In this document: piece after piece, positions 28,033-48,903 of the stretch
Layout of the letters: each line of letters opens with the position of its first letter
Numbering within the stretch: position 1 is the stretch's first letter
DNA from: Bacteroidales bacterium
Lineage (GTDB): Bacteria; Bacteroidota; Bacteroidia; Bacteroidales; UBA932
Direction of reading: 5' to 3'
DNA: 58,275 nucleotides
NCBI GenBank assembly: GCA_024401745.1
Contig: JAKSKK010000011.1
Location: 1-58,275 of the forward strand
Notes under the pieces: model-generated
Database searches by the model: none
The model's input: the letters and a program-made list of their open reading frames with translations, nothing else
What the model was told of the DNA's origin: nothing
Made by a program: the position numbers and the translations under genes

Positions 28033-28036
28033 GGCT

Positions 28037-29392
28037 TTATTTCTTGATGGGGAACTTGTATGCCAGCCAGCCCATTATGAGGGCGATGGCTGCGGGAATG
28101 AGTGAGAACAGGGCCCATACCATGGTCTTGACTGACTCGGTGACTGAGGCGGGGTCGATGATGTTGTTGCCGAATTCGTCAGGGATGATCCTTGCGCCTG
28201 CAAGGCCGAGAATCAGGGCGATGAGAGAGCCGGAAACGGCGCTGCCGAGCTTCTGAGCCATGGTGCCTGAAGAGAAGATGAGACCGGTTGAGGATGTGCC
28301 GAACTTCTCGGTGGCGTAGTCTGCCACGTCAGCGTACATCGACCACAGGAGGGGAGAGTAGATACCGATACCTACTGAAGTGAGGATCACCATCGCAACC
28401 ATCAGCCAGATGAACTTCGGGTCCATGGGGATGAAGAAGAATGCCACTGAGGTCACGAAGCAGATTGCTGATGCAATGATGAATGCCATGCGCTTCGAAC
28501 CTGCCCACTGGGCAACCTTGGGAGCAACGCCTCCGACTATCATGCAGGTCACCTCGCCGAATGCCATGAGCACTGTGAAATTGATGATGAGGGCACCGAC
28601 AGTCACGTCGCCTCCGAGGCAGTACGAAATCATGTAACCTGCTACTGCATAGCGGAATCCGTTGAAGAAGTTGGTTGCGATTCCTATGATTGTGAGCATT
28701 ACCCAGGGCTTATTCCTGAAGAGGTCGGCAAACTGGCGGAATGAGTATTTCTCGGCACGGATGGGCTTGAGACGCTCCTTGGTACAAAGGCCGCATATCA
28801 GTGTGAGCACTGCTGCGAGGATACCGAATCCGGCGCCGAGCACTGCATACTGGTGAGCCTCGGTACCGCCCACGAGCTTCTGAAGGTAGGGGAATGACAG
28901 CAGAGTGATGAATCCCATCGCGTATGCACCTACCATGCGGAATGAGGAGAACTGGTTCTTCTCGTTGTCGTCATCGGTCATCACGCCCAGCAGTGAGCCG
29001 TAAGGCACGTTCACTGCGGTGTACACTGCCATCATGAGCAGGTAGAGGGTATATGCGTAGATGCGCTTCCCAGTAGGACCTAAATCGGGTGTGTAGAGAA
29101 GCAGGGCGAACACGAGGCCAAGGGGAACAGCTCCGAATATGAGCCAGGGACGATAAGTGCCCCAGCGTGACTGGGTCCTGTCGGCAAGGCTGCCCATTAG
29201 AGGGTCTGTGACCACGTCGAAGAGCCTGGCCACAAGCATCAGCAGGGCCGCGTCGGCGAATGTGAGTCCGAATACGTTGGTGAAGTACAGCGGGAATGCT
29301 ATCGACATTATCTTCCAGGTGATTCCGCCTGCAGCGGCGTCACCGAGAGCATACGAGATCTTTTCCCAGAGGGAGCATTTAGTGGATGCCAT
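28037..29392 (-). CDS. GPH-family sugar:cation symporter
   Basis: Inner-membrane transporter, 451 residues with about 12 membrane segments. It belongs to the glycoside-pentoside-hexuronide family, shown by SYALGDAAAGGITWKIMS at the N terminus and the loop motif ARLFDVVTDPLMGSLADRT. In Bacteroidales mannan loci this type brings mannobiose or mannosyl-glucose into the cytoplasm, where the epimerase, GH130 and GH94 (all without signal peptides here) act. Substrate is inferred from neighbours. It lies between GH26 (8-base gap) and GH5 (4-base gap). Confidence 0.93.
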   Translation of the reverse strand: MASTKCSLWEKISYALGDAAAGGITWKIMSIAFPLYFTNVFGLTFADAALLMLVARLFDVVTDPLMGSLADRTQSRWGTYRPWLIFGAVPLGLVFALLLYTPDLGPTGKRIYAYTLYLLMMAVYTAVNVPYGSLLGVMTDDDNEKNQFSSFRMVGAYAMGFITLLSFPYLQKLVGGTEAHQYAVLGAGFGILAAVLTLICGLCTKERLKPIRAEKYSFRQFADLFRNKPWVMLTIIGIATNFFNGFRYAVAGYMISYCLGGDVTVGALIINFTVLMAFGEVTCMIVGGVAPKVAQWAGSKRMAFIIASAICFVTSVAFFFIPMDPKFIWLMVAMVILTSVGIGIYSPLLWSMYADVADYATEKFGTSSTGLIFSSGTMAQKLGSAVSGSLIALILGLAGARIIPDEFGNNIIDPASVTESVKTMVWALFSLIPAAIALIMGWLAYKFPIKK

Positions 29393-29400
29393 AAGTATCT

Positions 29401-30498
29401 TTAATTGAGTTTGTTGCGTGAAAGGAACATGGTCTGCTCTGACTCGGCGAACTTCCTGAAGTCATCGGCAGCGGGGCCGTCAGAGACGGGAACGTAGTAA
29501 TGGTTGGGCTTGTCGGCCTCGTTGGCATTGCGCCAGACAAGCACGTATGCGATGGGGAAGCCGTCGATGGCCGGCTGGAGCACTTCGGTCCACCAGTTGG
29601 GGTAGCCCAGGGTCTCAAGGCCGGTCTCGGTGACGGCAATCATCTTGCCGTGCTCTCTGCCCATCCTTTCAATGGCGCCCAGGCAGTAGTGCATCTCAGT
29701 GATGAACGCCTCGTTTGCCGGAACCCACAGGCTGTCGGCAGGGACATTGGGAGAGTAGCAGTCAAGGCCTATGATGTCGACGTATGAGTCACCGGGATAC
29801 CTGTCCTCCCAAGCTTCGAACTCGCTGAAAGAAGCGCCGGGGGAAATTGCCCATACTATGTCGGTAAGTCCCTTTTCTTCAGTCAGATAGTCGTACGTCA
29901 TTGCCCACAGTTCGTTGTACTGGTCGGGGGTGCAGAGCCCCGTTCCCCACCAGAACCAGCTGCCTGTGTGCTCGTGCCAGGGCCTGAAGATCACGGGGAT
30001 TTCCAGCGATGCGATGTAATTGGCCACAGCGTCGAGCCACTGGGTGAACTTCTCGTTGACCTCTCCTCCGGGGAGTATGGATTCAACGACTTCGTCGGAA
30101 CTTACGTCCCATGCGTCGCCTCCGGTAAGAGGGTTGCGTGCATGCCAGCTGAGGGTCACTATTCCGCCGCGCTTGTAATGCTTCTGGGCTGCCTCGCGCA
30201 TGAGGGCGAAGTCGTTGCCGTCAAGGTTGCAGGGACTGCCCAGCTCTATGCCACCAAGGTCCAGACCAAGGATTGCGGGGTATTCGCCCAAGGTCTCGAA
30301 CACGTCTGATTTCGTGAAATTGTGATCGACTTCGGTGTTGCCGTTCCAGCTATGGCCGTACATCAGGTCATCCTGATGCCCGAACATGTATTTGCCGGAA
30401 GCCACCGCGTCTGCAAGCCTCTGTTCGAGGCTGCCTTGTGCAGTACAGCCTGCAAGGACTGTGCAGAGGACTGTCAATGCGAAAAATAACTTCTTCAT
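29401..30498 (-). CDS. GH26 beta-mannanase lipoprotein
   Basis: A 365-residue lipoprotein (lipobox LAGC, C18) with a single GH26 barrel. The acid/base is E176 in FRPWHEHTGSWFWWG and the nucleophile E291 in AVTETGLE, both diagnostic for GH26. LSWHARNP is the conserved early cleft motif. Relatives include endo-mannanases and mannobiose-releasing mannobiohydrolases; I cannot decide which. The ATG at 30498 was chosen over a TTG two codons upstream. It follows GH130 by 16 bases, the arrangement of mannan-catabolic clusters in Bacteroides. Confidence 0.95.
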   Translation of the reverse strand: MKKLFFALTVLCTVLAGCTAQGSLEQRLADAVASGKYMFGHQDDLMYGHSWNGNTEVDHNFTKSDVFETLGEYPAILGLDLGGIELGSPCNLDGNDFALMREAAQKHYKRGGIVTLSWHARNPLTGGDAWDVSSDEVVESILPGGEVNEKFTQWLDAVANYIASLEIPVIFRPWHEHTGSWFWWGTGLCTPDQYNELWAMTYDYLTEEKGLTDIVWAISPGASFSEFEAWEDRYPGDSYVDIIGLDCYSPNVPADSLWVPANEAFITEMHYCLGAIERMGREHGKMIAVTETGLETLGYPNWWTEVLQPAIDGFPIAYVLVWRNANEADKPNHYYVPVSDGPAADDFRKFAESEQTMFLSRNKLN

Positions 30499-30514
30499 AG
30501 CCAACTTTTTTATG

Positions 30515-31672
30515 TTATTTGTTCATATTCCTGTCTATCAGCCTGTTCAGCCTCTCGACCGTAAGCCCCGTGCGCATCTCGTCGGGCTCGGTGTTCAGGC
30601 AGTAGTCCACAAGCCTTTCCACGCTGCTGGTCGCAACGTGCATGCGCGTGTCGGAGGATGCGTAGTAGATGAAGACCTTGCCATCCTCGTCGGCTATCCA
30701 GCCGTTAGAGAAGAGCACGTTCATCACGTCGCCTATGTACTCGCCGTCCTCGGGCGCCATGAAGAACCCTGCAGGCTCGGCAATAACCTTTGTGGGGTCA
30801 TCCAGGGCCGTCATGTACATGTACAGCACATATCGGAGGCCGCTGGCGCAGCCGCGCACGCCGTGGGCCAGATGGAGCCAGCCCTGAGGGGTCCTGATAG
30901 GGTGCGGGCCTTCTCCGTTCTTGGTTTCCTTGATGGTATGGTAGTGGCGCAGATTGATGATCTTCTCTTCCTTGACCTCGGCATTCGTGATGTCATCTAT
31001 CAGTGCCCAGCCTATTCCTCCGCCGCTTCCGGCGTCGATGAATCCGTCCTGCGGGCGGGTGTAGAGGGCATATCTGCCATCCACGAACTCGGGGTGCAGG
31101 CAGACGTTGCGCTGCTGTGAGGCCGACTTCAGGTCGGGGAGTCTTTCCCAGTTCACGAGGTCCTTCGTCCTGGCGATACCGCAAGCGGCGGTGGCGGCGG
31201 AGAGGTCAGCCTCGTTGTCATGGTCCTTGCGCTCCACGCAGAACAGGCCGTAGATCCAGCCGTCCTCATGGCGGGTAAGGCGCATGTCATAAATGTTGGT
31301 AGCGGGCTCTCCCCATTCCGGCATGGTCACCGGCCTTGGCCAGAAACGGAAGTTGTCGATGCCGTTGGGGCTCTCGGCAACTGCGAAGAAGGACTTGCGG
31401 TCGGCTCCTTCCACCCTGACTACCAGGACGTATCTGCCGTTCCATTTGATGGCTCCGCTGTTGAATGCGGCATGGACTCCGAAGCGTTCCATAAGGAACG
31501 GGTTCCTTGCGGGGTCGAGATCATAGCGCCATTCCAGCGGTGCGTGTGCTCCAGTGAGCACAGGGTTTGTGTATCTCTCGAAGATTCCGTTGCCTTCGAT
31601 TGCGGAGTTGGGCCTTGTAATCAGGTCCTTGAACTGACTTTTCAGCCATGAAAGTCGTTGCTCGTAAGTCAT
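30515..31672 (-). CDS. GH130 4-O-beta-D-mannosyl-D-glucose phosphorylase
   Basis: Cytoplasmic enzyme converting Man-beta-1,4-Glc plus phosphate to mannose 1-phosphate and glucose. The 385 residues lack a signal peptide. The fold is a five-bladed propeller; the general acid is D129 in GEPATNIYDMRL, with RVEGADRKSFFAVAESPNG and RNVCLHPEF as further family runs. The length and motifs place it with GH130 subfamily 1. It acts after the 2-epimerase encoded at 52282-53436. It starts 16 bases after the CxxCH-propeller lipoprotein gene, with no terminator visible between. Confidence 0.95.
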   Translation of the reverse strand: MTYEQRLSWLKSQFKDLITRPNSAIEGNGIFERYTNPVLTGAHAPLEWRYDLDPARNPFLMERFGVHAAFNSGAIKWNGRYVLVVRVEGADRKSFFAVAESPNGIDNFRFWPRPVTMPEWGEPATNIYDMRLTRHEDGWIYGLFCVERKDHDNEADLSAATAACGIARTKDLVNWERLPDLKSASQQRNVCLHPEFVDGRYALYTRPQDGFIDAGSGGGIGWALIDDITNAEVKEEKIINLRHYHTIKETKNGEGPHPIRTPQGWLHLAHGVRGCASGLRYVLYMYMTALDDPTKVIAEPAGFFMAPEDGEYIGDVMNVLFSNGWIADEDGKVFIYYASSDTRMHVATSSVERLVDYCLNTEPDEMRTGLTVERLNRLIDRNMNK

Positions 31673-31688: not shown

Positions 31689-33068
31689 CTAATTGAATTG
31701 TTCAGTTTCAGTGTTCTGCCAGATCTGTCCTGTCTTCTCCCAGTCGTACGGGGCAGGTTCCGTTCCGAGGTCGGGGATGTTGTATGACCTGAAATACTCC
31801 AGGTAGTGATGCGGGTCCTTCTGCGGGAGCACGAAGGCCTTGGAGGCCGTTCCGTCCTCGCCTATGTGGGTTATGTACGGCCTGCCGTACTGGCCGTCGC
31901 CACGCTTGCTGGCGAAGACTATCCATCTGGAGTTTGACGACCAGCTGTGATAGCTGTCGGACCTGTCGGAACTTGCGGCGGAAAGGTCCGCCTTCTCTCC
32001 AGTGACGAGGTCCATCATCTCCAGCGAGCACTCTCTGTGCCAGAGGGGGAAGGTGCCATAGTCGGCCACCGTGTAGAGTACCCACCTGCCGTCGGGCGAG
32101 CATTTCGGGTGGCATACCGACCCGGTGGGACCGTCGACTTTCACGGCCTCTCCGAGCGTGCCGGACTCGGCATCGAACGGCGCCCGCCACAGCGAGTAGT
32201 GCAGCTCGTGTATCTTTTCAGGCAGGCTTACGGTGTCAGCGCAGCAGTAATAGACCTCCGTTCCGTCTGCATTGAAGCAGGGGAAGGTTTCGAACTTGCC
32301 GGCCTTTGCGAACTCCGGCTGGGTGAGCATCTCGTTGGAGTCGAAATCGGCCACGCACAGGTCGGAGCACTTGTCATATACCTCGAACCTGAGGCTCCCC
32401 AGGGTATGGAACGACGGCATTATGACGTTGGTCGAGAACACGCCCCAGCGGCCTGAAGGGTGAAGGTCTCCGTATACTGTGGACGATACCATTGTGCTGT
32501 CCTTGAGCGCCAGCTTGCGTATCTCACCGTCTCTGTTCAGGATTGCGCCGCCCTTGGGCCCGCGGATGTAGAACATGCTGCTGTTTCCCTTGTGGATGTG
32601 GCAGTTCATGCAGCTGTTGCCGGTGTTCTTCCAGCTTGCCAGGGTCGTGGTGCTGAAGTCGCTCATGCGGCGCTGCTCGATCTCCACCTTGTCCCAGACC
32701 TCGTATCCGGGCTCGATCAGGCGGTAGGTCAGATATTCGTCTATGGGGTCGGGGCTGACTTGGATTTCCCAGCTGCCGAGCACGCTGCTGCTGACCTCGA
32801 TTGAGGATCCGGCTGCGGCCTCGAGCAGCTGCGCCCACCTGCGCTCAGGGATGCATACGTTGCGCCCGCGCGTACGGAAAGAGATTCCGGGTGCCTTGAA
32901 GACAGTGGTAGGAATGCCGCAGCTCCCGCTGTAGAAGAAGTTCAGCGGTGCGATGTTGCAGGGCACGGTAACGTCCTTGTAATCAGGATATATGCCGACC
33001 TGGCCACCCTTGGGGGAGCAGCCTGTGGCAAGTGCCAGCAGCAGTATGAGCAGCTTCAGCCTATCCAT
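31689..33068 (-). CDS. CxxCH-motif PD40-propeller lipoprotein, copy 1
   Basis: A 459-residue lipoprotein (lipobox ATGC, C17). A shared N-terminal domain starts with IYPDYKDVTVPCNIAPLNF and is followed by LTYRLIEPGYEVWDK. A cytochrome c-type CMNCH motif occupies residues 153-157, followed by YIRGPKGG. The C-terminal two thirds is a TolB/PD40-like propeller (CSPDGRWVLYT, WSSNSRWIVFASKRGDG). The same architecture appears in copies at 35841 and 37750. Function unknown; the haem motif suggests redox or haem binding. The start at 33068 overlaps the upstream helical-repeat gene by 8 bases, and GH130 follows after 16 bases. Confidence 0.82.
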   Translation of the reverse strand: MDRLKLLILLLALATGCSPKGGQVGIYPDYKDVTVPCNIAPLNFFYSGSCGIPTTVFKAPGISFRTRGRNVCIPERRWAQLLEAAAGSSIEVSSSVLGSWEIQVSPDPIDEYLTYRLIEPGYEVWDKVEIEQRRMSDFSTTTLASWKNTGNSCMNCHIHKGNSSMFYIRGPKGGAILNRDGEIRKLALKDSTMVSSTVYGDLHPSGRWGVFSTNVIMPSFHTLGSLRFEVYDKCSDLCVADFDSNEMLTQPEFAKAGKFETFPCFNADGTEVYYCCADTVSLPEKIHELHYSLWRAPFDAESGTLGEAVKVDGPTGSVCHPKCSPDGRWVLYTVADYGTFPLWHRECSLEMMDLVTGEKADLSAASSDRSDSYHSWSSNSRWIVFASKRGDGQYGRPYITHIGEDGTASKAFVLPQKDPHHYLEYFRSYNIPDLGTEPAPYDWEKTGQIWQNTETEQFN

Positions 33069-34065
33069 TCCTCTTGGCAAAATGATAGAAGAACCAGTAT
33101 GTCTTTCCGAACCTGTCCTGCAGCGGGGCCATCTGGCCGCCGCCACGCTGGTAAAGGTCGGTGTATTCGAAGAATTCCTGAGCCATGTCCGAGCTTATCC
33201 CGTACTGGTCCGCAGTCTCATCTGAAAGGCGCCCCTGCATGGCGAGCCCCACCAGAGCCACCTCGTCATAGACTTTGGACCGTATGCCTTCGGGGTCGTA
33301 GTCTTCCATGAAATGGACGATGTCCTTGGTCAGCAGGTCCAGACAGAGCAGATACTCGTAGGCCATGGTGTTGGAGGGATTGCCCTCGAGAAGGTTCAGG
33401 AGCACGCCTCGGTAGTCGCTTGCGAGCACCAGGGTGTCGCAGGCCGGCTTGAGGGGGATCTTCTCCTTCCATCCGTCATCCAGCGGCCTGCGCATCGCGG
33501 CCAGATATTTTGCGGCAGCGGCTTCGTCGCCGTTGACGAGGTTGATCTCGGCAAGCCTGCGCATGTATCTCTCGCCCTTATGGTTGGGTGAGAATGTCAT
33601 GCCGAGTATTGCCGCATGCTCAGCCTGAGTCATGGCTCCAAGCTGCCACCAGACCTCTGAAGCGCAGCCTATCACGAACGGAGTCTGGTCATCCTGGACT
33701 GGAAGGAAGAGACCACGCTCGAAAGGCTGATAATAACCGAGCAGTCCGTCACTGAGCGAACCGAGCTTCGCGTTTGCGAGGTTGTGGTAGTATGAGCAGA
33801 AGGTGCTGTGCCTGTCATCTGCAGTCAGCTCCTTGACTTTCAGCCAGTTGCCCTTGTCGGCGGCAAGGACGGTGGCCATGGCCCATTCGTTGTCGGAATT
33901 GGGCTTTCCGAAGGATTCCGCGGCCTGGGAGAGGGGAACATCCACGCTTCTGCAGTAGGAGATGTAGTGCCTGAAACGTATGCCGAAGCACGCACAGCCG
34001 GCGGCACACAGCAATGCCGCTGCGGCCAGAACGGTGAGTATGATCCTGTGCGTTCTACGTCCCAT
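33061..34065 (-). CDS. Short DUF6057-like protein, single membrane anchor, copy 1
   Basis: A 334-residue protein with one membrane segment (about residues 7-27) and a helical-repeat body. The body resembles the C-terminal half of the two longer paralogues: AEINLVNGDEAAAAKYLAAM parallels NIINGDLDVARKYLDAL at 34129, and both end FGxTYWFxY. It lacks the multi-membrane-segment N-terminal half of those paralogues. The ATG at 34065 (MGRRTHRIIL) gives the membrane segment; the frame open to 34221 is not supported. It overlaps the propeller gene by 8 bases and may be the first gene of the long mannan operon. Function unknown. Confidence 0.75.
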   Translation of the reverse strand: MGRRTHRIILTVLAAAALLCAAGCACFGIRFRHYISYCRSVDVPLSQAAESFGKPNSDNEWAMATVLAADKGNWLKVKELTADDRHSTFCSYYHNLANAKLGSLSDGLLGYYQPFERGLFLPVQDDQTPFVIGCASEVWWQLGAMTQAEHAAILGMTFSPNHKGERYMRRLAEINLVNGDEAAAAKYLAAMRRPLDDGWKEKIPLKPACDTLVLASDYRGVLLNLLEGNPSNTMAYEYLLCLDLLTKDIVHFMEDYDPEGIRSKVYDEVALVGLAMQGRLSDETADQYGISSDMAQEFFEYTDLYQRGGGQMAPLQDRFGKTYWFFYHFAKRNG

Positions 34066-34128
34066 TTTACATATTCTATGTAAATATACCGATTTTTTTG
34101 ATAACTTTACGCAGTCAATCAATAATAG

Positions 34129-35841
34129 ATGAACAAATTTCAGCGATATTCCTGTATGGCGTTTTCGGCACTGTTCGCGGTGGCCGTATTCTGCTTCTAT
34201 TGCTTCCAGTACAGGTATCATGTTGCATATCAGGAACAGTACCAGCTTTTCGAATGGACTGCAGGGTATTTCGCTTCCGTATGTTCCGTTCCCGGCGGCT
34301 TTGCCGATTGGTGCGGTCGCTTCCTCGTGCAGTTCTTCATCCAGGCCCCGGCCGGCGCTCTCATATACGCCTTGCTCCTTGCAGGGGTGCAGGTCCTGTG
34401 CTTCCTGACATTCAGGGCCAGGAATCTTCTGCTCTATGCTCTATCGTTCATTCCGGCCATCCTTCTGTGGATATTCTGCTGCAACGAGAGCTCGCTGATC
34501 GGTGCTGTTGTGGCTGTAATTCTTTCACTTTCAGCACTTCATGCATCGTTCTCCTTCAAGCTGAACCCTGTGCTGCGGCTTCTGGCCGTCCCCGTGCTCT
34601 ACATGCTGTGCGGCCCGGCAGCGCTCGTGTATGCTCTCGCGATATGTGCCGACGGGTTCCGCCCCGGCGTCCTGGCCTGCTCGATTCTGCTGATTGCTGC
34701 ATGCCCATTTGCCGGACAGTTCATATTCCATAGGACCCTTCTGCAGCTCAGTACGGGCGTGCACTATTTCAGATTTCCCTTCGTGGTGGCGTGGATGCCT
34801 CTCATCGCATCCGCCGTTGCCGCTGTGCTCTGCTGGCTTTCCTCCCTTGACTGGAGCGGCGTCCGCACTTCGACTTCCAACTGGCTGGGCTGGGGCGTTG
34901 CAATGGTCTTTGCCGCCGCCATTCCGTCAGTGGTGAAGGCCGGCTGCGATTTCCGCAAGGAGGAGAGCATGAAATACGACTTCCTGGTGCGCTACCATCT
35001 GTGGAACAGGACCATCGATGCCGCTGCCCACAGGCAGCCTGGCAGCCCCATGACAGTGAGCAGTCTGAATCTGGCGCTCGCCATGAACTCGCAGCTGGGC
35101 GAACACCAGTTCGAGTTCTTCCAGAACGGACCGGACGGGCTCCTACCCGGGTTCGTGCGCGATTTCACCTCCCCTCTGCCGACGGCTGAGGCATATTGGA
35201 ACCTCGGAATGGTCAACACCGCCCAGCGCTACACCTTCGAGGCCCAGGAGGCCATACCTGACCAGCAGAAGAGCGCCCGCTGCTACAGAAGGCTCGCCCA
35301 GACTAACATCATCAACGGCGACCTCGACGTTGCCCGAAAGTACCTCGATGCCTTGGACAACACGCTGTTCTACCGCCGCTGGGCGCAGGACATGCGTCAG
35401 GCCATCGAGTCAGGCAAGGCTCTTGACAATCCTGAACTGAAGCACATCTCCGAGCTCCGTCTCAGGGATCATGACTTCCTTTTCAGCGAGACAGAGATGG
35501 ACTCCATGATAGGCCTGCTGATGCTGGAGAATCACTCCAACTCAGTTGCCGTGCAGTATCTCATGTCCTGGTGCCTGCTCAAGAAGGACCTGGACCGCTT
35601 CGAACAGTGCTTCTCCCTTGTCAGGGGTACGATGATGAACAAGAGCTATCAGGAGGCTCTGCTTCTGCTCTGGGCATCGACCCACGACGGCGTCGATGGC
35701 ATGCCCCTTGACCTTCAGGGCCCGAATGTCAGCAGGCTCGGCAGTTTCATCGAAGCATATCAGGCCGGCAGTTCCGAAGAGGAGATGCAGAAGAAATTCG
35801 GCGACACATATTGGTTCTATTATTTCTACAGATACAAGTAA
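34129..35841 (+). CDS. DUF6057-like multi-pass membrane protein with helical repeats, copy 2
   Basis: A 570-residue protein. Residues about 1-270 hold about eight to ten membrane segments with the shared N-terminal signature YQEQYQLFEWTAGYF...GGFADW. Residues about 280-570 form a soluble TPR-like helical region (RLAQTNIINGDLDVARKYL, FGDTYWFYYFYRYK at the end). It matches the 39267-40742 gene over the whole length. It is divergent from copy 1, with 63 bases between starts, and its TAA overlaps the ATG of the next propeller gene by one base (TAATG). Function unknown; the pairing implies a complex with that lipoprotein. Confidence 0.78.
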   Translation: MNKFQRYSCMAFSALFAVAVFCFYCFQYRYHVAYQEQYQLFEWTAGYFASVCSVPGGFADWCGRFLVQFFIQAPAGALIYALLLAGVQVLCFLTFRARNLLLYALSFIPAILLWIFCCNESSLIGAVVAVILSLSALHASFSFKLNPVLRLLAVPVLYMLCGPAALVYALAICADGFRPGVLACSILLIAACPFAGQFIFHRTLLQLSTGVHYFRFPFVVAWMPLIASAVAAVLCWLSSLDWSGVRTSTSNWLGWGVAMVFAAAIPSVVKAGCDFRKEESMKYDFLVRYHLWNRTIDAAAHRQPGSPMTVSSLNLALAMNSQLGEHQFEFFQNGPDGLLPGFVRDFTSPLPTAEAYWNLGMVNTAQRYTFEAQEAIPDQQKSARCYRRLAQTNIINGDLDVARKYLDALDNTLFYRRWAQDMRQAIESGKALDNPELKHISELRLRDHDFLFSETEMDSMIGLLMLENHSNSVAVQYLMSWCLLKKDLDRFEQCFSLVRGTMMNKSYQEALLLLWASTHDGVDGMPLDLQGPNVSRLGSFIEAYQAGSSEEEMQKKFGDTYWFYYFYRYK

Positions 35842-37298
35842 TGTCAAGATTATCAAACATATCCGGCATCATCGCGATTGCCGTCCTCGCAGTCTCATGC
35901 TCTCAGAAGGCGATTGTGGCAGGGGAGTTCCCCGCAAATGCCGGCCCCATCTACCCCGACTACATGGGCGTGACGGTTCCTGCAGGCATTGCGCCGCTCA
36001 ATTTCTGCTATACCGCCCCCGGCACGTCAAAGGCAGTCACCACTTTCAGCTTTGGCTATCAGAGCTTTACCGTCAAGGGCGTCGAAGTCCGCATTCCCGA
36101 GAAGAAGTGGAAGAGCATGCTCCAGGCCGCGCGCGGCTCTCAGATAACAGTCAGCAGCACAGTCCTTGATGAACCCTGGACCATCTCCGTAAGCGAGGAC
36201 GACATCGACTACGGCCTGACCTACAGGCTCCTCGAGCCCGGATACGAAGTGTACAGCAAGATGGGCATCTACGAGCGTGAACTTGGATCCTTCAAGGAGA
36301 AGGCTCTCATCGAGAACACCGAGTTTTCCGGCTGCGTGAACTGCCATGCCACGAACAGGGGCGAACCCTCGCAGTACAGCCTGCATATCCGTGGAGACCA
36401 CGGCGCCACGCTGCTCCAGCTGCAGGGGAAGCTTGACGCATACAACACAAAGACCGACAGCACCTTGGGATTCTGCGTCTATCCTTACTGGCACCCCGAG
36501 GGCGAGTACATCGCATACTCGACTAACAACACCCGCCAGGGCTTCCATGTTCAGCAGGACAAGCTCATCGAGGTTTTCGACCTCGACTCTGACCTGCAGG
36601 TATACGACATAAGGAACAATACCCTCATCACCGCACCCCAGATCAAGGAAAAGGACTATTGGGAGACCTTCCCCAGCTTCTCTCCTGACGGCAGGACCCT
36701 GTATTTCTGCAGGGCCGTTCCCAAGAGCATTCCCGAGAACATCACCGACATACGTTACAGCTTCTGCAAGGTCGGCTTCGATCCTGCCACAGGCACCATC
36801 GGTCAGGATGTGGAGGTGCTCATCGATGCCGAGAACGACAGCCTGAGCGTATGCTTCCCCAAGCCTTCATACGACGGGAAGTATGTCGTGTACACCCAGT
36901 CGGCCTACGGCAACTTCAGCATCTGGCACCACGAGGCCGACCTTTGGATGCTCGACCTTCAGACAGGCGAGCGCCGTCCTCTTGACGTGCTGAACAGCCC
37001 CGATACCGAGAGCTATCACAACTTCAGTTCGAACGGAAAATGGTTCCAGCTTGCTTCGCGCAGGGACGACGGCCTCTTCACCCGAATCTACATCAGCCAC
37101 TTCGATTCCGAGACCGGCGAGTTCACGAAGCCCTTCATGCTTCCTCAGAAGAACCCTCGCACCTTCTACCGCGACAGGTTCCTTTCATACAACGTGACGG
37201 AGTTCACTACGGGCCCTGTGCAGCTCGACAAAGTACGCGCCCGGAAGATAATCGCATCCCCCGAGCGCGTTCCATTCGGTTTCCGTTGGAGCAGGTAG
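35841..37298 (+). CDS. CxxCH-motif PD40-propeller lipoprotein, copy 2
   Basis: A 485-residue lipoprotein (lipobox AVSC, C20). The shared domain begins IYPDYMGVTVPAGIAPLNF, then LTYRLLEPGYEVYSKMG. The haem-type motif CVNCH is at residues 165-169 and is followed by LHIRGDHGATLLQLQG. Propeller repeats include FSPDGRTLYFCRA and PSYDGKYVVYTQSAYG, ending in LPQKNPRTFY. The start at 35841 overlaps the upstream stop (TAATG); the frame is open to 35811, but that part overlaps the membrane protein's end. It ends 3 bases from the convergent DUF4369 gene. Confidence 0.82.
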   Translation: MSRLSNISGIIAIAVLAVSCSQKAIVAGEFPANAGPIYPDYMGVTVPAGIAPLNFCYTAPGTSKAVTTFSFGYQSFTVKGVEVRIPEKKWKSMLQAARGSQITVSSTVLDEPWTISVSEDDIDYGLTYRLLEPGYEVYSKMGIYERELGSFKEKALIENTEFSGCVNCHATNRGEPSQYSLHIRGDHGATLLQLQGKLDAYNTKTDSTLGFCVYPYWHPEGEYIAYSTNNTRQGFHVQQDKLIEVFDLDSDLQVYDIRNNTLITAPQIKEKDYWETFPSFSPDGRTLYFCRAVPKSIPENITDIRYSFCKVGFDPATGTIGQDVEVLIDAENDSLSVCFPKPSYDGKYVVYTQSAYGNFSIWHHEADLWMLDLQTGERRPLDVLNSPDTESYHNFSSNGKWFQLASRRDDGLFTRIYISHFDSETGEFTKPFMLPQKNPRTFYRDRFLSYNVTEFTTGPVQLDKVRARKIIASPERVPFGFRWSR

Positions 37299-37301
37299 CT
37301 C

Positions 37302-37811
37302 CTATTTCTTCTCAGGATAAAGTCCCAGCAGGAAAGACCCCAGCGTGGATTCCTCGCCTAAGGCGTGTGCCATGCTGCGGGTGCGGTCCATATAGGTCTG
37401 GAGCGTCAGGTCGAGCGTGAATCTGTTCTCTGTAAGGTCCTTCCATACCTGCAGGGAATCGTTCTGCGGCGTGCCCGCACTGTAGCTGCGCGGCCCCAGG
37501 ACCACGCTGATCTCTCCCGGTTCTGTGACCAAGAGCAGATTCTGCACGTTCATGCGCTTGAACTTCTCGATGCGTACGGCCACCAGACGTTCCTTGGTTC
37601 CCTTGAATTCGAAACGACCGTTCTTTATGAATGTCGAATCCAGATTGTCCTTCTCGGGCAGATGGACCAGTTCGGTCACTGGCACGAGGAATACTATCGC
37701 CCCTTCAAGTGATGGGTCGGTCACGGTCCCCATGATATGGTATCCGCTTTTATTGCATGAACATAGGAGCGCTGCTGTCAGCAGGCTCAGGATCAGAAAT
37801 GATTTCTTCAT
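37302..37811 (-). CDS. DUF4369-like lipoprotein
   Basis: A 169-residue lipoprotein (MKKSFLILSLLTAALLCSC, C19). The body resembles the DUF4369 domain that normally precedes a thioredoxin domain in Bacteroidota TlpA-like proteins: GTVTDPSLEGAIVFLVP, then STFIKNGRFEFKG and LLVTEPGEISVVLG. No thioredoxin domain follows; the remainder is a short helical tail. The first 62 bases overlap the 3' end of the upstream CxxCH-propeller gene in another frame. It is probably part of the same functional unit as copy 3 of the module. Confidence 0.75.
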   Translation of the reverse strand: MKKSFLILSLLTAALLCSCNKSGYHIMGTVTDPSLEGAIVFLVPVTELVHLPEKDNLDSTFIKNGRFEFKGTKERLVAVRIEKFKRMNVQNLLLVTEPGEISVVLGPRSYSAGTPQNDSLQVWKDLTENRFTLDLTLQTYMDRTRSMAHALGEESTLGSFLLGLYPEKK

Positions 37812-39270
37812 CGTCAGTTGTTATTCTGTCTTTTGCTGTAAGTCTGTCCGGATCGGTCACCTGCTTCCAGGTGCTGCCCTTCCTGAACTTCACCTTGCTG
37901 CTGGTGAAGTCGGGGCAGTTGAATGAATACAGTGAATTCACGTAGTATCTTCCAGGATTCTTCTGAGGAAGCAGGAACGGCTTGGATGCGTTCCCGTCTT
38001 CATCTATGTGGCAGATATAGAGCAGGCTGTACAGCCCGTCAGCCCTGCGGGAGCTGAACAGTATCCAGTGTGAATCGGCGCTCCAGTTATGGAAGCTTTC
38101 GGCATATTCCGAGTTGGCCCCGGCCAGCGCGTGCCGTTTCCCGCTGCTCAGGTCAAGCAGGTACAGGTCGGCCTCCTTGTGGTTGATGGGGAAGCAGCCG
38201 AAGTCGGCCTCGCTGTACAGGATGAACCTGCCGTCGTACGACGGGCGTGGGAAGGTGATGCTGCGGCCCTTCCTTGCGCAGTTTATCAGGGTGTCCACCT
38301 TGCTTCCGAAGCTGCCGGTCTCGGGGTCGAAGTCTATGCTGCAGAGGCTGTATCGTACTTTCTCAGCATTTGCCGGAACTTCCTCGGGGAATGCTGTACA
38401 ATAGTATAGGGTGCGCCCGTCGGGTGAGAATGCGGGGTAGGTCTCGTACCAGTCGGTGTGCACAAGGGGGGAGGTGATCACTTCGTCGGTGCGTACGTCG
38501 ATGACCGATATGTCGGATGCATCGTCCCACACTTCAATGAGCCGTCCGCTGCCGGTCCAGAAGCTCTGATGTATGAAATTGTTGGAGCAGGCGCAATAGT
38601 CTCCGCCCGGATGCCAGTAAGGATAGACTGCGTTGCTGATGGTGTTGGCCGTCTTGGTGGTGAGCCACTTGCCCTCGCCGTTCACCTGGAAGTATGTGCC
38701 GCCGTGCTTTCCGCGGAGGTGGAAGGTGTACTGGTCGGGGTTCGTGGCATTAGCCGTATGGCAGTTGACGCACTGCCCTGGGGTGAGGGTGCTTTCGATG
38801 ATGGGCGTCTCCTTGAAATTGCGGATGTTCCTCTGATAGTTGCCTATCTTGCTGTAGGTCTCGTATCCAGGTGCAATCTTCCTGTATACCACGCCCCATG
38901 CTTCGAGAGTGTCGGCGCTGACGTAGATGGGAAAGTCCTTCCACTGTGTCCATGCCCCATCCTTCAGACCGAGCACAGTGACGCGGAGTGAATCCCCGGC
39001 ATTCGCCTCTGTAAGTTTGTGCCAGCCGTTAACGCTGAATCTGGCTGTCTTTCCGCGGGCCTTGAGTATGCTGCCGTCGGCGCCCTGGACTCTGACAAAG
39101 ACCTTGCTGTACTGAGTGCCGAGCTCGAAGTTGAGGGGGGCTGTCCCCACCGGAACGGTGACACCTGTATAATCCGGCCAGATCTCGGGGAGGCGCGGGT
39201 CAAGGCTCGTTGTCCTGCTGCAGGATATCAGTCCCAAGACCGAAAGAAGTATCAGTATGCTCTTTTTCAT
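37750..39270 (-). CDS. CxxCH-motif PD40-propeller lipoprotein, copy 3
   Basis: A 506-residue lipoprotein (lipobox LISC, C17). The shared domain begins IWPDYTGVTVPVGTAPLNF and continues through KIAPGYETYSKIGNY. The haem-type motif CVNCH is at residues 167-171, followed by FHLRGKHGGTYFQVNG. Propeller repeats include FSPDGRTLYYCTAFP and PSYDGRFILYSEADFG, ending LPQKNPGRYY. The last about 20 residues are acidic and are coded in the overlap with the DUF4369 gene. Its ATG overlaps the stop of the DUF6057 gene upstream (ATGA). It is the most similar in layout to copy 2. Confidence 0.82.
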   Translation of the reverse strand: MKKSILILLSVLGLISCSRTTSLDPRLPEIWPDYTGVTVPVGTAPLNFELGTQYSKVFVRVQGADGSILKARGKTARFSVNGWHKLTEANAGDSLRVTVLGLKDGAWTQWKDFPIYVSADTLEAWGVVYRKIAPGYETYSKIGNYQRNIRNFKETPIIESTLTPGQCVNCHTANATNPDQYTFHLRGKHGGTYFQVNGEGKWLTTKTANTISNAVYPYWHPGGDYCACSNNFIHQSFWTGSGRLIEVWDDASDISVIDVRTDEVITSPLVHTDWYETYPAFSPDGRTLYYCTAFPEEVPANAEKVRYSLCSIDFDPETGSFGSKVDTLINCARKGRSITFPRPSYDGRFILYSEADFGCFPINHKEADLYLLDLSSGKRHALAGANSEYAESFHNWSADSHWILFSSRRADGLYSLLYICHIDEDGNASKPFLLPQKNPGRYYVNSLYSFNCPDFTSSKVKFRKGSTWKQVTDPDRLTAKDRITTDDEEIISDPEPADSSAPMFMQ

Positions 39271-40742
39271 TTCTGTGCCTCCTTTTCCATGAGCGTCATC
39301 CATGCACTGAAGTACCACGCGGACATTGCGTTCGTGTTGTTCTCCTGATAGAGCTTTGCAAGAGTCCGGCCCATTTCAGGATAATGGAACAGGAAGTCTT
39401 CCTTGAATCTGACGGTCTGCAGATATAGGTAAAGCGGGTCAGGCTCGGCCTTTCCCTCTATCATTGCCTTTCTCTCCAACGCCCATTTCCTGTAGAACAG
39501 GCTGTGACTCAGTATGTCGAGGTATTTCTCGGCGAGTTGCCAGTTACCGTTCACGATATGGCATTCCGCAATGTGGCTTATATGGCGGCCGCTTTTCTGG
39601 TTGTTCATCTCAGATTCCTGGGAGTCGAAGGCGTATCTGAGGCTGGAATTGACCATGCCGAGGCGCCAGAAAACCTCGTAGCTGCCCACGTTTGAGATGA
39701 AGTCCCGCACGCGGGGCATGATCAGGCCCTCGGTTCCGCACTGGCGGAATCCGGTTATGTCATCAACGGAATGACCGCTCATGCAGAGGGCCAGGTTGAG
39801 GTTTACATAACATTCAGGGGACTGCGGCATATATTTCTTTGCGGCAGTTACGGCATCCTCCCACCTTTCCTGACGGACCAGCTGGTCGAGTGCGATGGCC
39901 TGCTGGGTGCCTTCGTCGTATGAGCGTGACAATCCCAGATATGTTGGATATGCCAGCAGCAGGGTGAGGACGATTGCAGGCACCACGGGCTTCCTGAATT
40001 CAGGCAGCGCTTCCAGCAGAAGGGGGATCAGCACCGCGCTGCCCGCTGTGACAAGCTGGATGGCCGGCACCACGAGCGGCATCCTGTAATAGCCTATGCC
40101 GAAAATGGCAGCCTTCATCGGATACTGGTTAAGCAGCGTATAGTGCGCAAGGATGACCAGCAGGGCGGGATATACAAGACCTGCAAGCCCGAAGGCGAAG
40201 CTCCTGCCGTCAAAGCCGTGCTCGGCAATCTTCATGATCACGGAAAGGACTGCGAAGATCCACATCGCAGGCCCCGCGAGCCAGTACAATGCAGGGATGG
40301 CAATCAGCTCGAACAGACCGTAATTCTTTGTCTTGCGGTACAGCCAGAAGCATCCCAGAGCCATGCAGATGGCCACGGCATGCGAGGGCATCACATAGAT
40401 GTCGCCCATGCCGATAAGCATGAGGATGGAGGGGATGAAACTCAGCGGATACCAGCCGTCATTCTGCTTGCCGGCCATCCATACGCGGTATTGAAGAGCC
40501 ACCAGCAGGGCAGCCAGCAGGGCGGCCCCGAGCCAGGGGATGCAGTTGAACTGGGTGATGAACTCCGCGATGTAGTCGGCAAGTCCGCCGGCACGTGAGA
40601 GATGGTCCAGCAGATAGTCCCAGGTGAAAAGGAACAGCTGGTTCTGTTCCTGGAAGCCCAGAGTCAGCGGATGCACGAGGAACCAGAACAGGAAAACGCC
40701 TGTTCCGAACAGCAGAGAGAGCGCTATTTTCGTGAACTTCAT
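39267..40742 (-). CDS. DUF6057-like multi-pass membrane protein, copy 3
   Basis: A 491-residue protein with roughly nine membrane segments in residues 1-270 and a helical-repeat tail. The N-terminal signature QEQNQLFLFTWDYL...GGLADYIAEF parallels copy 2. The tail (AECHIVNGNWQLAEKYLDIL) also matches, but it ends about 60 residues earlier and lacks the FGxTYWFxY end of copies 1 and 2. The ATG at 40742 is 7 bases after TATTTTTG. It is first in a unit with the CxxCH-propeller copy 3 and the DUF4369 lipoprotein, placed just after the SusCDE terminator. Confidence 0.78.
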   Translation of the reverse strand: MKFTKIALSLLFGTGVFLFWFLVHPLTLGFQEQNQLFLFTWDYLLDHLSRAGGLADYIAEFITQFNCIPWLGAALLAALLVALQYRVWMAGKQNDGWYPLSFIPSILMLIGMGDIYVMPSHAVAICMALGCFWLYRKTKNYGLFELIAIPALYWLAGPAMWIFAVLSVIMKIAEHGFDGRSFAFGLAGLVYPALLVILAHYTLLNQYPMKAAIFGIGYYRMPLVVPAIQLVTAGSAVLIPLLLEALPEFRKPVVPAIVLTLLLAYPTYLGLSRSYDEGTQQAIALDQLVRQERWEDAVTAAKKYMPQSPECYVNLNLALCMSGHSVDDITGFRQCGTEGLIMPRVRDFISNVGSYEVFWRLGMVNSSLRYAFDSQESEMNNQKSGRHISHIAECHIVNGNWQLAEKYLDILSHSLFYRKWALERKAMIEGKAEPDPLYLYLQTVRFKEDFLFHYPEMGRTLAKLYQENNTNAMSAWYFSAWMTLMEKEAQK

Positions 40743-40825: not shown

Positions 40826-42298
40826 TTATTTAGCCCTGAATTTCCAGAATGTGATCTCACCCCAGCTTCCGGGAGCATTCTTGTCGTCAACAAGGGTGAG
40901 GTAGTCGGCGTCGGCATACATGATGCTGAACTTCTTGACTGTAGCTCCTTCCATATTGATGCTGTAAGGGAAGAGCACTGCGGGAGCGCTGGTCTCAAGA
41001 TAGCCGAGCTGCCATCCGCTTGCGCGGGTGCCATCCCAATCGGTAACCTCGTAGTTCGCAGTAGCGATCTGTGTCCCGTCTGCACCGTAAGAGGTGATCT
41101 TGCCGTCGGCGGTGAATACCATGTAGGCGTCCTGGTTCATGTCGGGAACGACAGAGCCGCCTGAATGTGCGCTCTGGCCTTCGAATTCCTCGGTGCTGGT
41201 AACGCCCCACCATTTTCCGTCAACATTGGATGCGGTGAAGTTTGCGCCTCCGCCTGTGCTTCCGGCATTGCCCCAGAATGCAATAGGGTTACCGTCTGCG
41301 CCGGTGCCACAATCCCATGTCCATGCACGCTCGCTGCCTCCAGTGAGGATGTCGCTGATGCCATCCTTGTTCTTGAACAGCCAGAAGGTGATCTCTGCCC
41401 AGCTGCCTACTGCATTCTTCTGGTCGACGAGGGTCATGTAGTTCTCGTCGAGATACATGATGTCGAATGTGTTGCAGTTGGCACCGTTCATGTTGATCGA
41501 GTAAGGGAAGAGCACTGCAGGGCCGGAAGTGACGAGCTGGCCAAGTGCCCAACCGTCGTTGCGTGATGCATTGTAATTCTTGACTTCGAAGGTTGCCTTG
41601 TTGATCTTGGTGCCGTCTGCACCGTATGATGTGATGCCACCATCCTCGTCGAGAGTCATGTATGCATTGACGTTCATGTCAAGAACCACGTTGCCTGCTG
41701 AATGTGCGGACTGGCCTTCGAATTCTTCAGTGCTGGTAACACCCCACCACTTTCCGTCAACGATGCCGGGACCTGAGAAGTTTGCGCCTGCGCCTGAGTT
41801 GCCGGCGTTACCCCAGAATGCCTGGGCCTCGCCGACGAGGCCGTTGTCCCATGTCCATGACTTCACGCCGTCGCCAAGGAGAAGCTTAAGCTCGGGATCG
41901 AGCTCGCCGGGAACGAATACGGTTACCATTGCAGTATTCTCAACCAGACTTGCATCCTGGTTGATGGCCTGAAGAATGAGTGTCTGGTTAGGATCGCTGC
42001 CTCGTTTGGGTTTCACGTTGATGACACCGGAAGCACCGGTTCCGAGAAGAGTGCGGCTTCCGTCAGCCTTCACACTGAATACCTGAACTGTAGTGGCAGG
42101 CTCGGTGTGGTACTTGACGAAGTTACCGTCAGTCTGAGCGGTAACGCATCCGGCATCAGCATACTGTCCGTCAACAATGAACGTGAAGTCACTGGCGGCA
42201 ATAGGAGCGGCTGCAGATCCTCCTTCGATGATCTGAGGCTCACAGGAAGCGAGCAGCATTGCTGCGGCTGCCATTGCTATGTATATTAATTTCTTCAT
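40826..42298 (-). CDS. SusE-position surface glycan-binding lipoprotein with duplicated domain
   Basis: A 490-residue lipoprotein (lipobox LASC, C19) in the position of SusE/SGBP, third after SusC and SusD. Residues about 25-135 are Ig-like. The rest is two tandem copies of a domain of about 175 residues, each opening with a WTWD run and ending with SW.EITFW.F. Each copy contains KWWGVTSTEEFEGQSAHS and VLFPYSINM; the aromatic residues in the shared runs are good candidates for sugar stacking. It probably binds mannan chains at the cell surface, with two sites. It has no recognised family name in my reading. Confidence 0.8.
   Translation of the reverse strand: MKKLIYIAMAAAAMLLASCEPQIIEGGSAAAPIAASDFTFIVDGQYADAGCVTAQTDGNFVKYHTEPATTVQVFSVKADGSRTLLGTGASGVINVKPKRGSDPNQTLILQAINQDASLVENTAMVTVFVPGELDPELKLLLGDGVKSWTWDNGLVGEAQAFWGNAGNSGAGANFSGPGIVDGKWWGVTSTEEFEGQSAHSAGNVVLDMNVNAYMTLDEDGGITSYGADGTKINKATFEVKNYNASRNDGWALGQLVTSGPAVLFPYSINMNGANCNTFDIMYLDENYMTLVDQKNAVGSWAEITFWLFKNKDGISDILTGGSERAWTWDCGTGADGNPIAFWGNAGSTGGGANFTASNVDGKWWGVTSTEEFEGQSAHSGGSVVPDMNQDAYMVFTADGKITSYGADGTQIATANYEVTDWDGTRASGWQLGYLETSAPAVLFPYSINMEGATVKKFSIMYADADYLTLVDDKNAPGSWGEITFWKFRAK
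41162..41224. repeat. Direct repeat unit 1 in the surface lipoprotein gene
   Basis: This 63-base stretch matches 41699-41761 with only a handful of differences. It encodes the KWWGVTSTEEFEGQSAHS run of the second domain copy. The two units are 537 bases (179 codons) apart. Confidence 0.9.
41699..41761. repeat. Direct repeat unit 2 in the surface lipoprotein gene
   Basis: Partner of 41162-41224; encodes the same run in the first domain copy. The strong nucleotide identity points to a recent domain duplication or gene conversion. Confidence 0.9.
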
Positions 42299-42328: not shown

Positions 42329-44122
42329 CTACCATCCGGGGAAGTCTGTGTCTGTACCCCAGCCTTCGTTCTGGGTGAACTGGTACTCTGCACCGGCTCC
42401 GGCAGACAGGGCGATCTGGGCCTCAGGAATCTTTACGAATCCCTTGGTTGCCTTGTAACGGTTGCCATAGCCACCATTGTACTTGGCGGCAGTGTTGGTG
42501 CCTTTGACGCCTGAGTTGTAGACTTCGACACCTTCCTGCTTCTCGAGTGCAGCCACTGCATAGTCTTCACCGTAGCGGCGGAGGTCGTTGAAGCGTACGC
42601 CTTCGAAAGCGAACTCCCAACGGCGCTCGTTGCGGATGTTAGCCTCGTTGGCGGTCTTCGAACCGAGGCCTGCGCGTGCGCGGACCTTGTCGAATGAAGC
42701 CTGGTTGCCGTTGATCTCTGCATCCATGAGGAGAACCTCAGCAAAGCGGATGAGAATCATGTCGTTGACGCTGTTGAGCTGGAAGTTGTCCTCGTTGCCT
42801 GAAGACCAGGTGAGGCCGGGGAACATGACGTTCGTGAATGACTTCATGTACTTGCCGTTCTCCTCGCTCCATGCGAGCACGGGCATGATCTTGGTCTGAT
42901 AGTAACCAGACTCCTGGATGTTGGAGTCGCCACCGAACTTGTAAGAAGGCCATTTCTCGACTGAGATGATGGAAGCGTCGAAACGCTTGTCGCCAGGCTC
43001 TGTAGCCTTCCAGTCATCTACGAGAGAAGGATTGACAGGGCACATGCCCCAGCCGGTACCGAAGGGGAAGCACTCGCCGTTGTCGAGGCTCTGGCCACGT
43101 ACGCCCCAGTAGAGGGCTGTCTGGTTTGAGTAACCGATGGTGGTGCTCCATGAAGGCTGGGTGTTGAACTTGATGACGAACATTGCCTCAGGATTGACGG
43201 CGCCGTCGTTCTCTGCCCACTCGTAACCCATGCCCTTCCAGGGAGACTTCTCGTCCTCTACTGAGCACTTGTTCGTATATGCCCAAAGCTCGTGAGGATC
43301 GTCAACGAGGGTATAGCCGGAATTGTTGACGCAGTCGGTGATGTACTTGCCGACCTCTTCCTTGCTGATAGTGGTGCCTTCAGCGATGCTTACGCCGATG
43401 GTCTCGTTCTCGTATGCAGGAAGTGTGATGGCGCTCAGGCCATAGAATCCGCTTGCGAAGAGGAATGCGCGGCCAAGGAGAGCCTCTGCTGCGTACTTGT
43501 CAACGTGACCGTCGCCGGTGCCCTTCTTTGCGGGCATGATGTCGGCAGCGATCTTGCAGTCCTCGACGATCTGTCCCCAGAGGGCTTCACCGCTGATCTG
43601 AGGGAGTGTAGGGTCTGCAGTCGTGGTGACGGGGCAGGGGATGTTGCCGAACATTGAGGCGAGCTCGTAGTAGTACCATGCGCGGAGGAAGAAAGCCTCG
43701 CCCATGTACTGGTTGACCTTCTCGGCGTTCATGGTTGCGCTGAGGTTGGCCAGAGCTTCGATGGCGGCATTTGCACGTGCGATACCTTTGTAGCGGGCTG
43801 TGTAGAAGCCGTCGTACATACTTGAACCGAAGTTCAGCATAAGGTCTTCAGCCTGAGCTGCCTGGTCGTTGGCGCCACCACCGCCGAGGCAGTCGTCGGA
43901 TGCGGCTTCTGACCACATGTGATGTGCGAAGAGAGGGCTGTTGCCGATGACGATATTCATGTTGTTGTAAATACCGGCAATCATCTGGTCAGCGTCTGTC
44001 TCGTTTACGGGGAAGTTGCTGCTGTCTTTTGACCAGTAGTTTGTGGTGTCAAGGAAGGACTCACAAGAGGCGAAAGAGAAAGCGAGAGCCAGAACGGCTG
44101 CGAGTTTGATTATCTTTTTCAT
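42329..44122 (-). CDS. SusD/RagB-family nutrient-binding lipoprotein
   Basis: Outer-membrane surface lipoprotein that acts as a lid on the paired SusC barrel and delivers oligosaccharide. It is 597 residues from the ATG at 44122 (MKKIIKLAAVLALAFSFASC, C20); an ATG five codons upstream at 44137 is possible. The SusD-like N-terminal region has FLDTTNYW and helical TPR-like segments such as YMGEAFFLRAWYYYELA; the C-terminal RagB part contains RFAEVLLMDAEI and NERRWEFAFEGVRFNDLRRY. It lies directly after SusC. Likely ligand is mannan-derived oligosaccharide, by context. Confidence 0.94.
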   Translation of the reverse strand: MKKIIKLAAVLALAFSFASCESFLDTTNYWSKDSSNFPVNETDADQMIAGIYNNMNIVIGNSPLFAHHMWSEAASDDCLGGGGANDQAAQAEDLMLNFGSSMYDGFYTARYKGIARANAAIEALANLSATMNAEKVNQYMGEAFFLRAWYYYELASMFGNIPCPVTTTADPTLPQISGEALWGQIVEDCKIAADIMPAKKGTGDGHVDKYAAEALLGRAFLFASGFYGLSAITLPAYENETIGVSIAEGTTISKEEVGKYITDCVNNSGYTLVDDPHELWAYTNKCSVEDEKSPWKGMGYEWAENDGAVNPEAMFVIKFNTQPSWSTTIGYSNQTALYWGVRGQSLDNGECFPFGTGWGMCPVNPSLVDDWKATEPGDKRFDASIISVEKWPSYKFGGDSNIQESGYYQTKIMPVLAWSEENGKYMKSFTNVMFPGLTWSSGNEDNFQLNSVNDMILIRFAEVLLMDAEINGNQASFDKVRARAGLGSKTANEANIRNERRWEFAFEGVRFNDLRRYGEDYAVAALEKQEGVEVYNSGVKGTNTAAKYNGGYGNRYKATKGFVKIPEAQIALSAGAGAEYQFTQNEGWGTDTDFPGW

Positions 44123-44139
44123 ATTGATATCCTTCATTA

Positions 44140-48813: not shown

Positions 48814-48827
48814 GTTTGTGGTTTTTA

Positions 48828-48835
48828 CAAAAGTA
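48828..48835 (-). promoter_or_regulatory. -7 element TACTTTTG upstream of the AraC-family gene
   Basis: An exact TAnnTTTG match on the minus strand, 14 bases before the ATG at 48813. Confidence 0.45.
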
Positions 48836-48895
48836 CATAATAATATTAAATTATAGTACTATTTTGTCATTTATTATTTTCTCGATTATTTCTCT

Positions 48896-48903
48896 TATCT
48901 TTG
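48896..48903 (+). promoter_or_regulatory. -7 element TATCTTTG, 5 bases before the Rid-like gene
   Basis: An exact TAnnTTTG match ending 5 bases before the GTG chosen as start at 48909. It supports that GTG over the ATG at 48801, which would place the promoter inside the gene. Confidence 0.55.

Follow-up and report, generated by a model that had tools for sequence, protein, structure and literature searches.

Recurrent pairs of DUF6057 proteins and CxxCH-bearing propeller lipoproteins in a SusCD-type import cassette of Bacteroidales

A 58,275-nt stretch from the genome of a Bacteroidales bacterium (assembly GCA_024401745.1, contig JAKSKK010000011.1, positions 1 to 58,275; hereafter the window) carries three neighbouring gene pairs, each encoding a DUF6057 (PF19529) protein and a lipoprotein with a haem-type CxxCH motif and PD40 propeller repeats. 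These pairs were found to belong to a recurring Bacteroidales cassette with the order SusC-SusD-lipoprotein-(DUF6057-CxxCH lipoprotein)-DUF4369-(DUF6057-CxxCH lipoprotein), and the link to SusC and SusD is an addition to the preliminary description of this DNA, which had not drawn it. The module is an unnamed two-protein envelope unit of plant-sugar-feeding gut bacteria, consisting of a probable haem lipoprotein and its own membrane partner and often located in nutrient-import operons. We regard the locus as a variant SusCD import locus whose mechanism, like its status as a cytochrome, is unproven. In the open-access literature searched, judged from listings and the openings of abstracts, no account of the pair was seen and no paper naming DUF6057 or PF19529, which agrees with the preliminary statement that no role is described.

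The three pairs, designated A, B and C, lie on the minus, plus and minus strands, respectively, at the places previously reported and with overlapping stop and start codons. In pair A, the genes of the DUF6057 protein (33061-34065) and the lipoprotein (31689-33068) overlap by 8 bases; in pair B, the DUF6057 stop (34129-35841) and the lipoprotein start (35841-37298) have one base in common; and in pair C, the two genes (39267-40742 and 37750-39270) overlap by 4 bases. The three window partners scored 242, 504 and 369 bits against PF19529, all exceeding its gathering score of 29.8. The full-length protein of pair B has about eight membrane helices, as predicted by hydropathy, and a TPR-like C-terminal part, and the pair C protein matches profile positions 4-482 of 569. 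That of pair A is a short form, in which the multi-helix N-terminal part is absent and the TPR-like C-terminal part of the family alone, matched from profile position 203, follows one N-terminal membrane helix predicted by hydropathy. The lipoproteins, with the motif CMNCH in pair A (lipobox ATGC) and CVNCH in pairs B and C, all keep PDYxxVTVPxxxAPLNF, the CxxCH, a subsequent RG and the PD40 repeats, as had been noticed before; PD40 was the sole Pfam family above cut-off in all three, and no NCBIfam cut-off was reached.

The association of the two families extends across the genus and the order. Seven family lipoproteins were found in the window's genome (G000, a 72% complete assembly; G and L numbers denote genomes and loci), each with a DUF6057 gene beside it, so that the three pairs reported earlier stand for the window while the genome total is higher; one 293-aa DUF6057 open reading frame (ORF) has no adjoining lipoprotein. 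Among 25 genomes of the genus, including the window's and many of them incomplete, the lipoprotein occurs in 10 and DUF6057 in the identical 10, and DUF6057 without the lipoprotein was seen in G034, whose gene is cut by a contig end, and as a weak match in G032. Order-wide, 49 of 392 sampled genomes, about one in eight, carry the lipoprotein, many of them more than once; all 49 have DUF6057, which was also matched weakly in four genomes without the lipoprotein. Three further genomes (G093, G175 and G228) were subtracted from an initial 52, as they match only the PD40 part of a longer ORF (E 1e-24 to 1e-26). We also collected 77 loci from named genomes with search patterns that excluded the CxxCH motif; these derive from the best 80 of at least 578 confirmed stretches, and closer relatives are therefore over-represented. 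They are labelled mostly Prevotella, Prevotellaceae, Bacteroides and Bacteroidales, come from rumen and gut, and include the isolates Prevotella sp. AGR2160 and Segatella albensis DSM 11370, each carrying a pair (L174 and L203). DUF6057 adjoins 139 of their 148 lipoprotein ORFs on the same strand, and in the genus and named-genome loci combined it comes first in 152 of 163 pairs.

Each lipoprotein co-varies with its own DUF6057. The distances among partners and among lipoproteins were correlated with r = 0.80 over 133 pairs with full-length DUF6057, while swapping partners within the 43 loci having more than one pair gave a mean of 0.29 and a maximum of 0.50 in 1000 trials. Because duplication of the pair as a unit would give the same correlation, this demonstrates a stable one-to-one partnership and not contact. 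The short form of pair A has similar counterparts of 352-355 aa at L130, L131, L132 and L079. A further variety of short DUF6057, with an apparent lipid anchor replacing the multi-helix part, was observed at L078:1906-3027, L080:14853-15797, L081:8978-9901 and L137:14347-15327, and a CxxCH lipoprotein comes after each of them.

A SusC and SusD pair in the operon, the feature by which polysaccharide utilization loci (PULs) are recognised, was seen in the window and in the recurrent cassette. The pairs of the window's genome lie at five places, each <7 kb from one of its SusC genes, of which 14 score above the curated cut-off; in the window, pair C is nearest to SusC and pair A about 10 kb off. 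At the 77 named loci, a cluster of 36 lipoproteins of the type encoded at position 40826 of the window (31 of the 36 match the window protein directly) was found in 35 loci and DUF4369 homologues in 37, with at least one of these two families in 43. The run of 40826-type lipoprotein, DUF6057 and CxxCH lipoprotein occurs in 25 loci, and the run of DUF6057, lipoprotein, DUF4369, DUF6057 and lipoprotein in 26; both mostly come after SusC-SusD where the stretch is long enough, many stretches ending at contig ends. Like known SusCD PULs, the window has mannan enzymes close to SusC and SusD, along with an AraC-type regulator and a lipoprotein that is probably surface-exposed. Unlike in those loci, the operon incorporates between one and three DUF6057-CxxCH lipoprotein pairs together with a DUF4369 protein, and the other cassettes are without a fixed enzyme set, glycoside hydrolases (GHs) and housekeeping genes being mixed. 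Among 78 non-cassette neighbours (77 of 103 listed proteins, one per cluster, and one more from L169), some were GHs and many were housekeeping proteins. Carbohydrate-active enzymes stand beside the pairs in the window, and a mannan-specific role was considered and rejected as a general one, since the neighbours elsewhere are mixed and the GH26-like family occurs in the window and in just three of the 77 loci.

The three copies had been described as triplicated. A recent tandem triplication within the mannan locus, without special meaning, would suit three adjacent copies within a cluster of mannan genes (GH26, GH130, GH5, epimerase type), but identity to copy C is 35% for copy A and 41% for copy B. 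A tree was computed for 107 lipoproteins (a quick search with SH-aLRT, the Shimodaira-Hasegawa-like approximate likelihood ratio test, as its only support, no bootstraps, and one 285-aa row excluded). In it, the window copies fall in three different supported clades, and the nearest relatives of each are copies from the corresponding position in other genomes: copy A with counterparts at L130, L131 and L079, copy B with L077, L079, L130 and L132, and copy C with L078, L079, L129 and L130. This rules out a recent triplication, to which we give practically no credence, and makes the earlier term misleading; the grouping by matching place indicates that the three-copy set predates the parting of these species.

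Both cysteines and the histidine of the CxxCH motif are invariant in all 108 distinct aligned copies. The motif is present in 33 of 33 genus copies spanning the site, namely the 31 of the genus alignment, from nine genomes, and two of the three remaining matches, the third being a non-spanning fragment; and in 142 of the 148 lipoprotein ORFs of the named loci, always at the same model position, the other six being fragments that do not span the site, two of them pieces of one L144 gene. These counts were taken from sets without a filter for the letters CH, because such a filter had been applied to the order-wide alignment (77 of 139 eligible copies of 440-560 aa containing CH, and the three of the window). 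For comparison, among the 283 neighbouring ORFs of 300 aa or longer at the named loci, one has a CxxCH. The preliminary description had named loss of the cysteines in most homologues as its refutation; they are kept wherever the motif is spanned. The L144 gene (L144:4782-6236) is broken right at the CxxCH stretch and represents a dead copy or an assembly fault.

The motif stands in a lipoprotein with PD40 propeller repeats. All 80 members of the order-wide alignment matched PD40 at E <= 1, the best at 7.5e-19. The list of 25 Pfam families obtained for these members included no cytochrome c fold family, save Paired_CXXCH_1 in three members (best E 0.085). A sequence search of solved structures gave chance-level matches alone, mostly to antibody chains, and a profile search gave single-repeat matches to TolB (E 0.0014-0.0072), Atu1656 and lp_2219. 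The lipoproteins share the PD40 repeats with TolB of the Tol-Pal system, whose chains are matched over one repeat stretch. In contrast to TolB, whose partner is Pal, the window lipoproteins have a lipid anchor, the CxxCH and a DUF6057 partner, and membership in TolB was rejected at TIGR02800 scores of 18.8-21.6 bits against a cut-off of 343.15. In cytochrome cd1 nitrite reductase, a c-type haem is joined to a beta-propeller, but that protein is a soluble respiratory enzyme, neither SusCD-linked nor a lipoprotein.

It is likely that the lipoprotein carries haem c. The distribution of cytochrome c synthase genes is in line with this. In the genus, CcsA (PF01578 above cut-off; a sub-threshold trace in G004 was scored as absent) was found in 10 of 10 bearing genomes versus 7 of 15 others (Fisher 0.008), and in the order in 48 of 49 bearing versus 271 of 343 others (Fisher 0.0006), with the reservation that these tests take no account of shared ancestry and that order-wide at most 7 CcsA candidates per genome were scored. 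As the preliminary description had stated, the window holds no cytochrome maturation gene, in that no CcsA match was found in it; the genome's sole match is a ResB-CcsA gene on a different contig. In the seven CcsA-bearing genus genomes without the pair, another CxxCH gene lies <=5 kb from CcsA in all seven. The pair-bearing G003, G017 and G020 have no CxxCH gene within this distance, and their synthase therefore needs unlinked substrates; none was seen in G001, where the flank is cut. This association is consistent with the lipoproteins being synthase substrates and is no proof of it. The suspected haem link thus gains indirect support from the invariant motif and the enriched synthase gene. 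The lipoproteins are like the monohaem c-type cytochromes made by System II (ResB-CcsA) in their export signal, single CxxCH and genome-encoded synthase, and unlike them in that the motif stands in a propeller lipoprotein for which, apart from the weak Paired_CXXCH_1 matches, the listed families include no cytochrome c fold.

At L109:5873-10637 (G000:C4:35873-40637) and L111:4912-10509, a tetrahaem NapC/NirT-type protein fused to an FGE-sulfatase (SUMF1) domain was observed, followed by exported Gfo/Idh/MocA and xylose-isomerase-like TIM-barrel proteins and ResB-CcsA. This gene set looks like periplasmic sugar oxidation tied to cytochrome c. A coupling of the pairs to such oxidation, of the 3-keto-glycoside type, is left as a lead, the CcsA cluster of the window's own genome standing apart from the pairs; a literature search on it brought up nothing decisive. 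At L213:14823-17375, in the single-contig genome G401, about 7-9 kb separate the pair from two ORFs that contain 20 and 12 CxxCH motifs.

The location of the lipoproteins was judged from the residues that follow the lipid cysteine, since in surface lipoproteins of Bacteroidota this cysteine is directly followed by acidic residues (PMC5080379). At positions +2 to +6, the CxxCH lipoproteins have a mean of 0.60 acidic residues (146 of 171 copies scored) and the DUF4369 proteins 0.68 (28 of 37), versus 2.10 in SusD (21 of 29) and 1.71 in the 40826 type (35 of 36). The CxxCH lipoprotein and DUF4369, which lack this export signal, thus probably face the periplasm, and SusD and the 40826 type probably go to the surface. 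The surface complex proposed in the preliminary description is therefore not supported, the count of the CxxCH lipoproteins being low compared with SusD. Where DUF6057 is short and has one helix or a lipid anchor, its TPR-like part would lie in the periplasm.

We propose that each pair would act as a two-part envelope module, which in the window would be part of a SusCD import system. The lipoprotein would be exported and anchored in the outer membrane facing the periplasm, and one haem c would be attached by the genome's ResB-CcsA (System II) synthase at the CxxCH, in a haem site between the N-terminal region and the PD40 propeller repeats. DUF6057, in its multi-helix, single-anchor or short lipoprotein form, would be the lipoprotein's own partner, and its TPR-like part may dock it; several diverged pairs would be encoded in the same operon as SusC, SusD, a DUF4369 protein and a lipoprotein exposed at the surface. 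The pairs would carry electrons, or a redox signal sensed through the haem, between the SusCD cargo and the inner membrane. In our estimate the likeliest description, with an even chance of being right, is a monohaem propeller cytochrome that faces the periplasm, docks to its membrane partner and serves SusCD import. A fuller proposal, put forward tentatively, is that DUF6057 in the inner membrane and the haem c propeller lipoprotein on the periplasmic side pair one to one across the envelope, and that SusCD imports are oxidised or reduced by these pairs or have their redox state sensed by them. These bacteria are usually seen as fermenters that take up sugars via SusCD, TonB and enzymes. If the proposal is true, glycan uptake of fermentative gut and rumen Bacteroidales would be coupled to a cytochrome, whose place in the uptake operon would add a redox step and give DUF6057 a role; if it is confirmed, electron transfer or haem sensing would be an unsuspected component of how fermenting bacteria take up sugars.

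Several observations, together with the reservation on the Fisher tests given above, weigh against the cytochrome proposal. Regarding the haem, no distal ligand is certain, His394 being the best candidate (105 of 107 copies), followed by His364 (97 of 107) and His220 (94 of 108). G304, 99% complete and with a SusC-DUF6057-CLNCH lipoprotein locus (L212), gave no CcsA match at E <= 1 with every candidate scored (five CcsA-negative genomes without the pair also stayed negative on full rescoring). G034, the 61% complete genome with the cut DUF6057 gene, has no CcsA match either. In six pair-bearing genomes (G000, G002, G007, G012, G021 and G024) another CxxCH gene stands beside a CcsA, and the synthase may therefore serve these linked genes. 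Regarding the setting, no redox enzyme is fixed in the cassette at the 77 named loci, and a SusC match is absent from the fetched stretch at L086, L088, L090, L091, L092, L210, L211 and L213. In full-length DUF6057, helix count and charge fit a periplasmic or a cytoplasmic TPR part alike. The CxxCH could instead be a conserved disulfide, thiol or metal site, without haem, in a glycan-binding propeller lipoprotein of the SusCD system, for which the near-complete G304, the lack of an invariant distal His or Met and a motif region without a solved homologue in the structure searches would speak; yet the histidine is as invariant as both cysteines while a disulfide needs none, and CcsA is enriched in bearing genomes, so we consider a non-haem site rather improbable.

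Two further alternatives concern the role of DUF6057, for which domain matches were examined in 72 members (70 of 101 eligible proteins and two from the window). The pair could be a haem-based or redox sensor, whose propeller binds a ligand while the haem reports redox state or a gas and DUF6057 signals to the inner membrane, tuning SusCD. The presence of several diverged pairs in one operon, with a separate partner for each lipoprotein, would suit a set of sensors, and an AraC regulator adjoins the window operon, but neither a kinase nor a sigma-factor family is among the recurrent cassette members and no known sensor domain was found in the 72 DUF6057 proteins; we regard a sensor as unlikely. 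DUF6057 could also be a dedicated assembly factor of the lipoprotein, comparable to CcmI, a TPR protein assisting apocytochromes, with the holo-lipoprotein then acting alone. The TPR-like part, with weak TPR matches (TPR_12, for instance, in 8 of 72 members), the strict pairing and the DUF4369 proteins, which recall thiol-redox proteins used for apocytochromes, count for it, and like the CcmI/CcmH chaperones DUF6057 is a membrane protein with a TPR part beside a cytochrome-type substrate. However, the match to TPR_CcmH_CycH, seen in two of 72 members, is not significant (best E 0.12); moreover, a single copy would suffice for a general chaperone, while here each lipoprotein has its own. Such an assembly role thus appears doubtful. 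Among solved structures, the membrane part of DUF6057 gave a weak match to CbiQ (E 2e-4), which was attributed to membrane-protein composition.

The remaining genes of the operon in the window, all on the minus strand, comprise a DUF4369 lipoprotein without a thioredoxin domain (37302-37811; PF14289, at 42 bits the sole family matched); the probably surface-exposed lipoprotein between SusD and pair C (40826-42298), which has no Pfam family; the SusD-like lipoprotein (42329-44137), whose close homologue L078:7839-9590 matches SusD_RagB; and the SusC-like TonB-dependent transporter (44140-47799; TIGR04056 895 bits, above cut-off, at G000:C3:44647-47733). They are adjoined by the AraC-type regulator on the same strand (47938-48813; HTH_18, HTH_AraC). 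A beta-mannan type gene set flanks the pairs at 20760-31672 and 49892-55790 (GH26, GH130, GH5, GH94, GH36, a transporter, an epimerase type and GH95), and a comparable set, judged by eye, comes after the pairs on a Bacteroides sp. contig (L169:10567-15845).

Beyond the order, a phylum-wide set of 392 genomes contains the lipoprotein family in five at E <= 1e-50, of which G458 and G497 lie outside the class. At these two most distant loci, a gene for a Rid-fold, chorismatase-like protein adjoins those of DUF6057 and a CMNCH lipoprotein, and the fetched 18-19 kb gave no match to SusC or SusD; the pair may predate its association with SusCD. Of 102 lipoprotein loci (1.72 Mb searched), 19 contain the Rid-fold family, in 17 cases no more than 3 kb away, as compared with one weak match (41 bits) in 0.32 Mb from 23 other loci. 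In the window, such a protein is encoded on the plus strand at 48801-49895 (PF01042; TIGR04444 51 bits, far below the cut-off of 325), and similar FkbO/Hyg5-chorismatase-like proteins stand beside pairs at L204, L210, L211, L214, L086, L090, L077, L079 and others.

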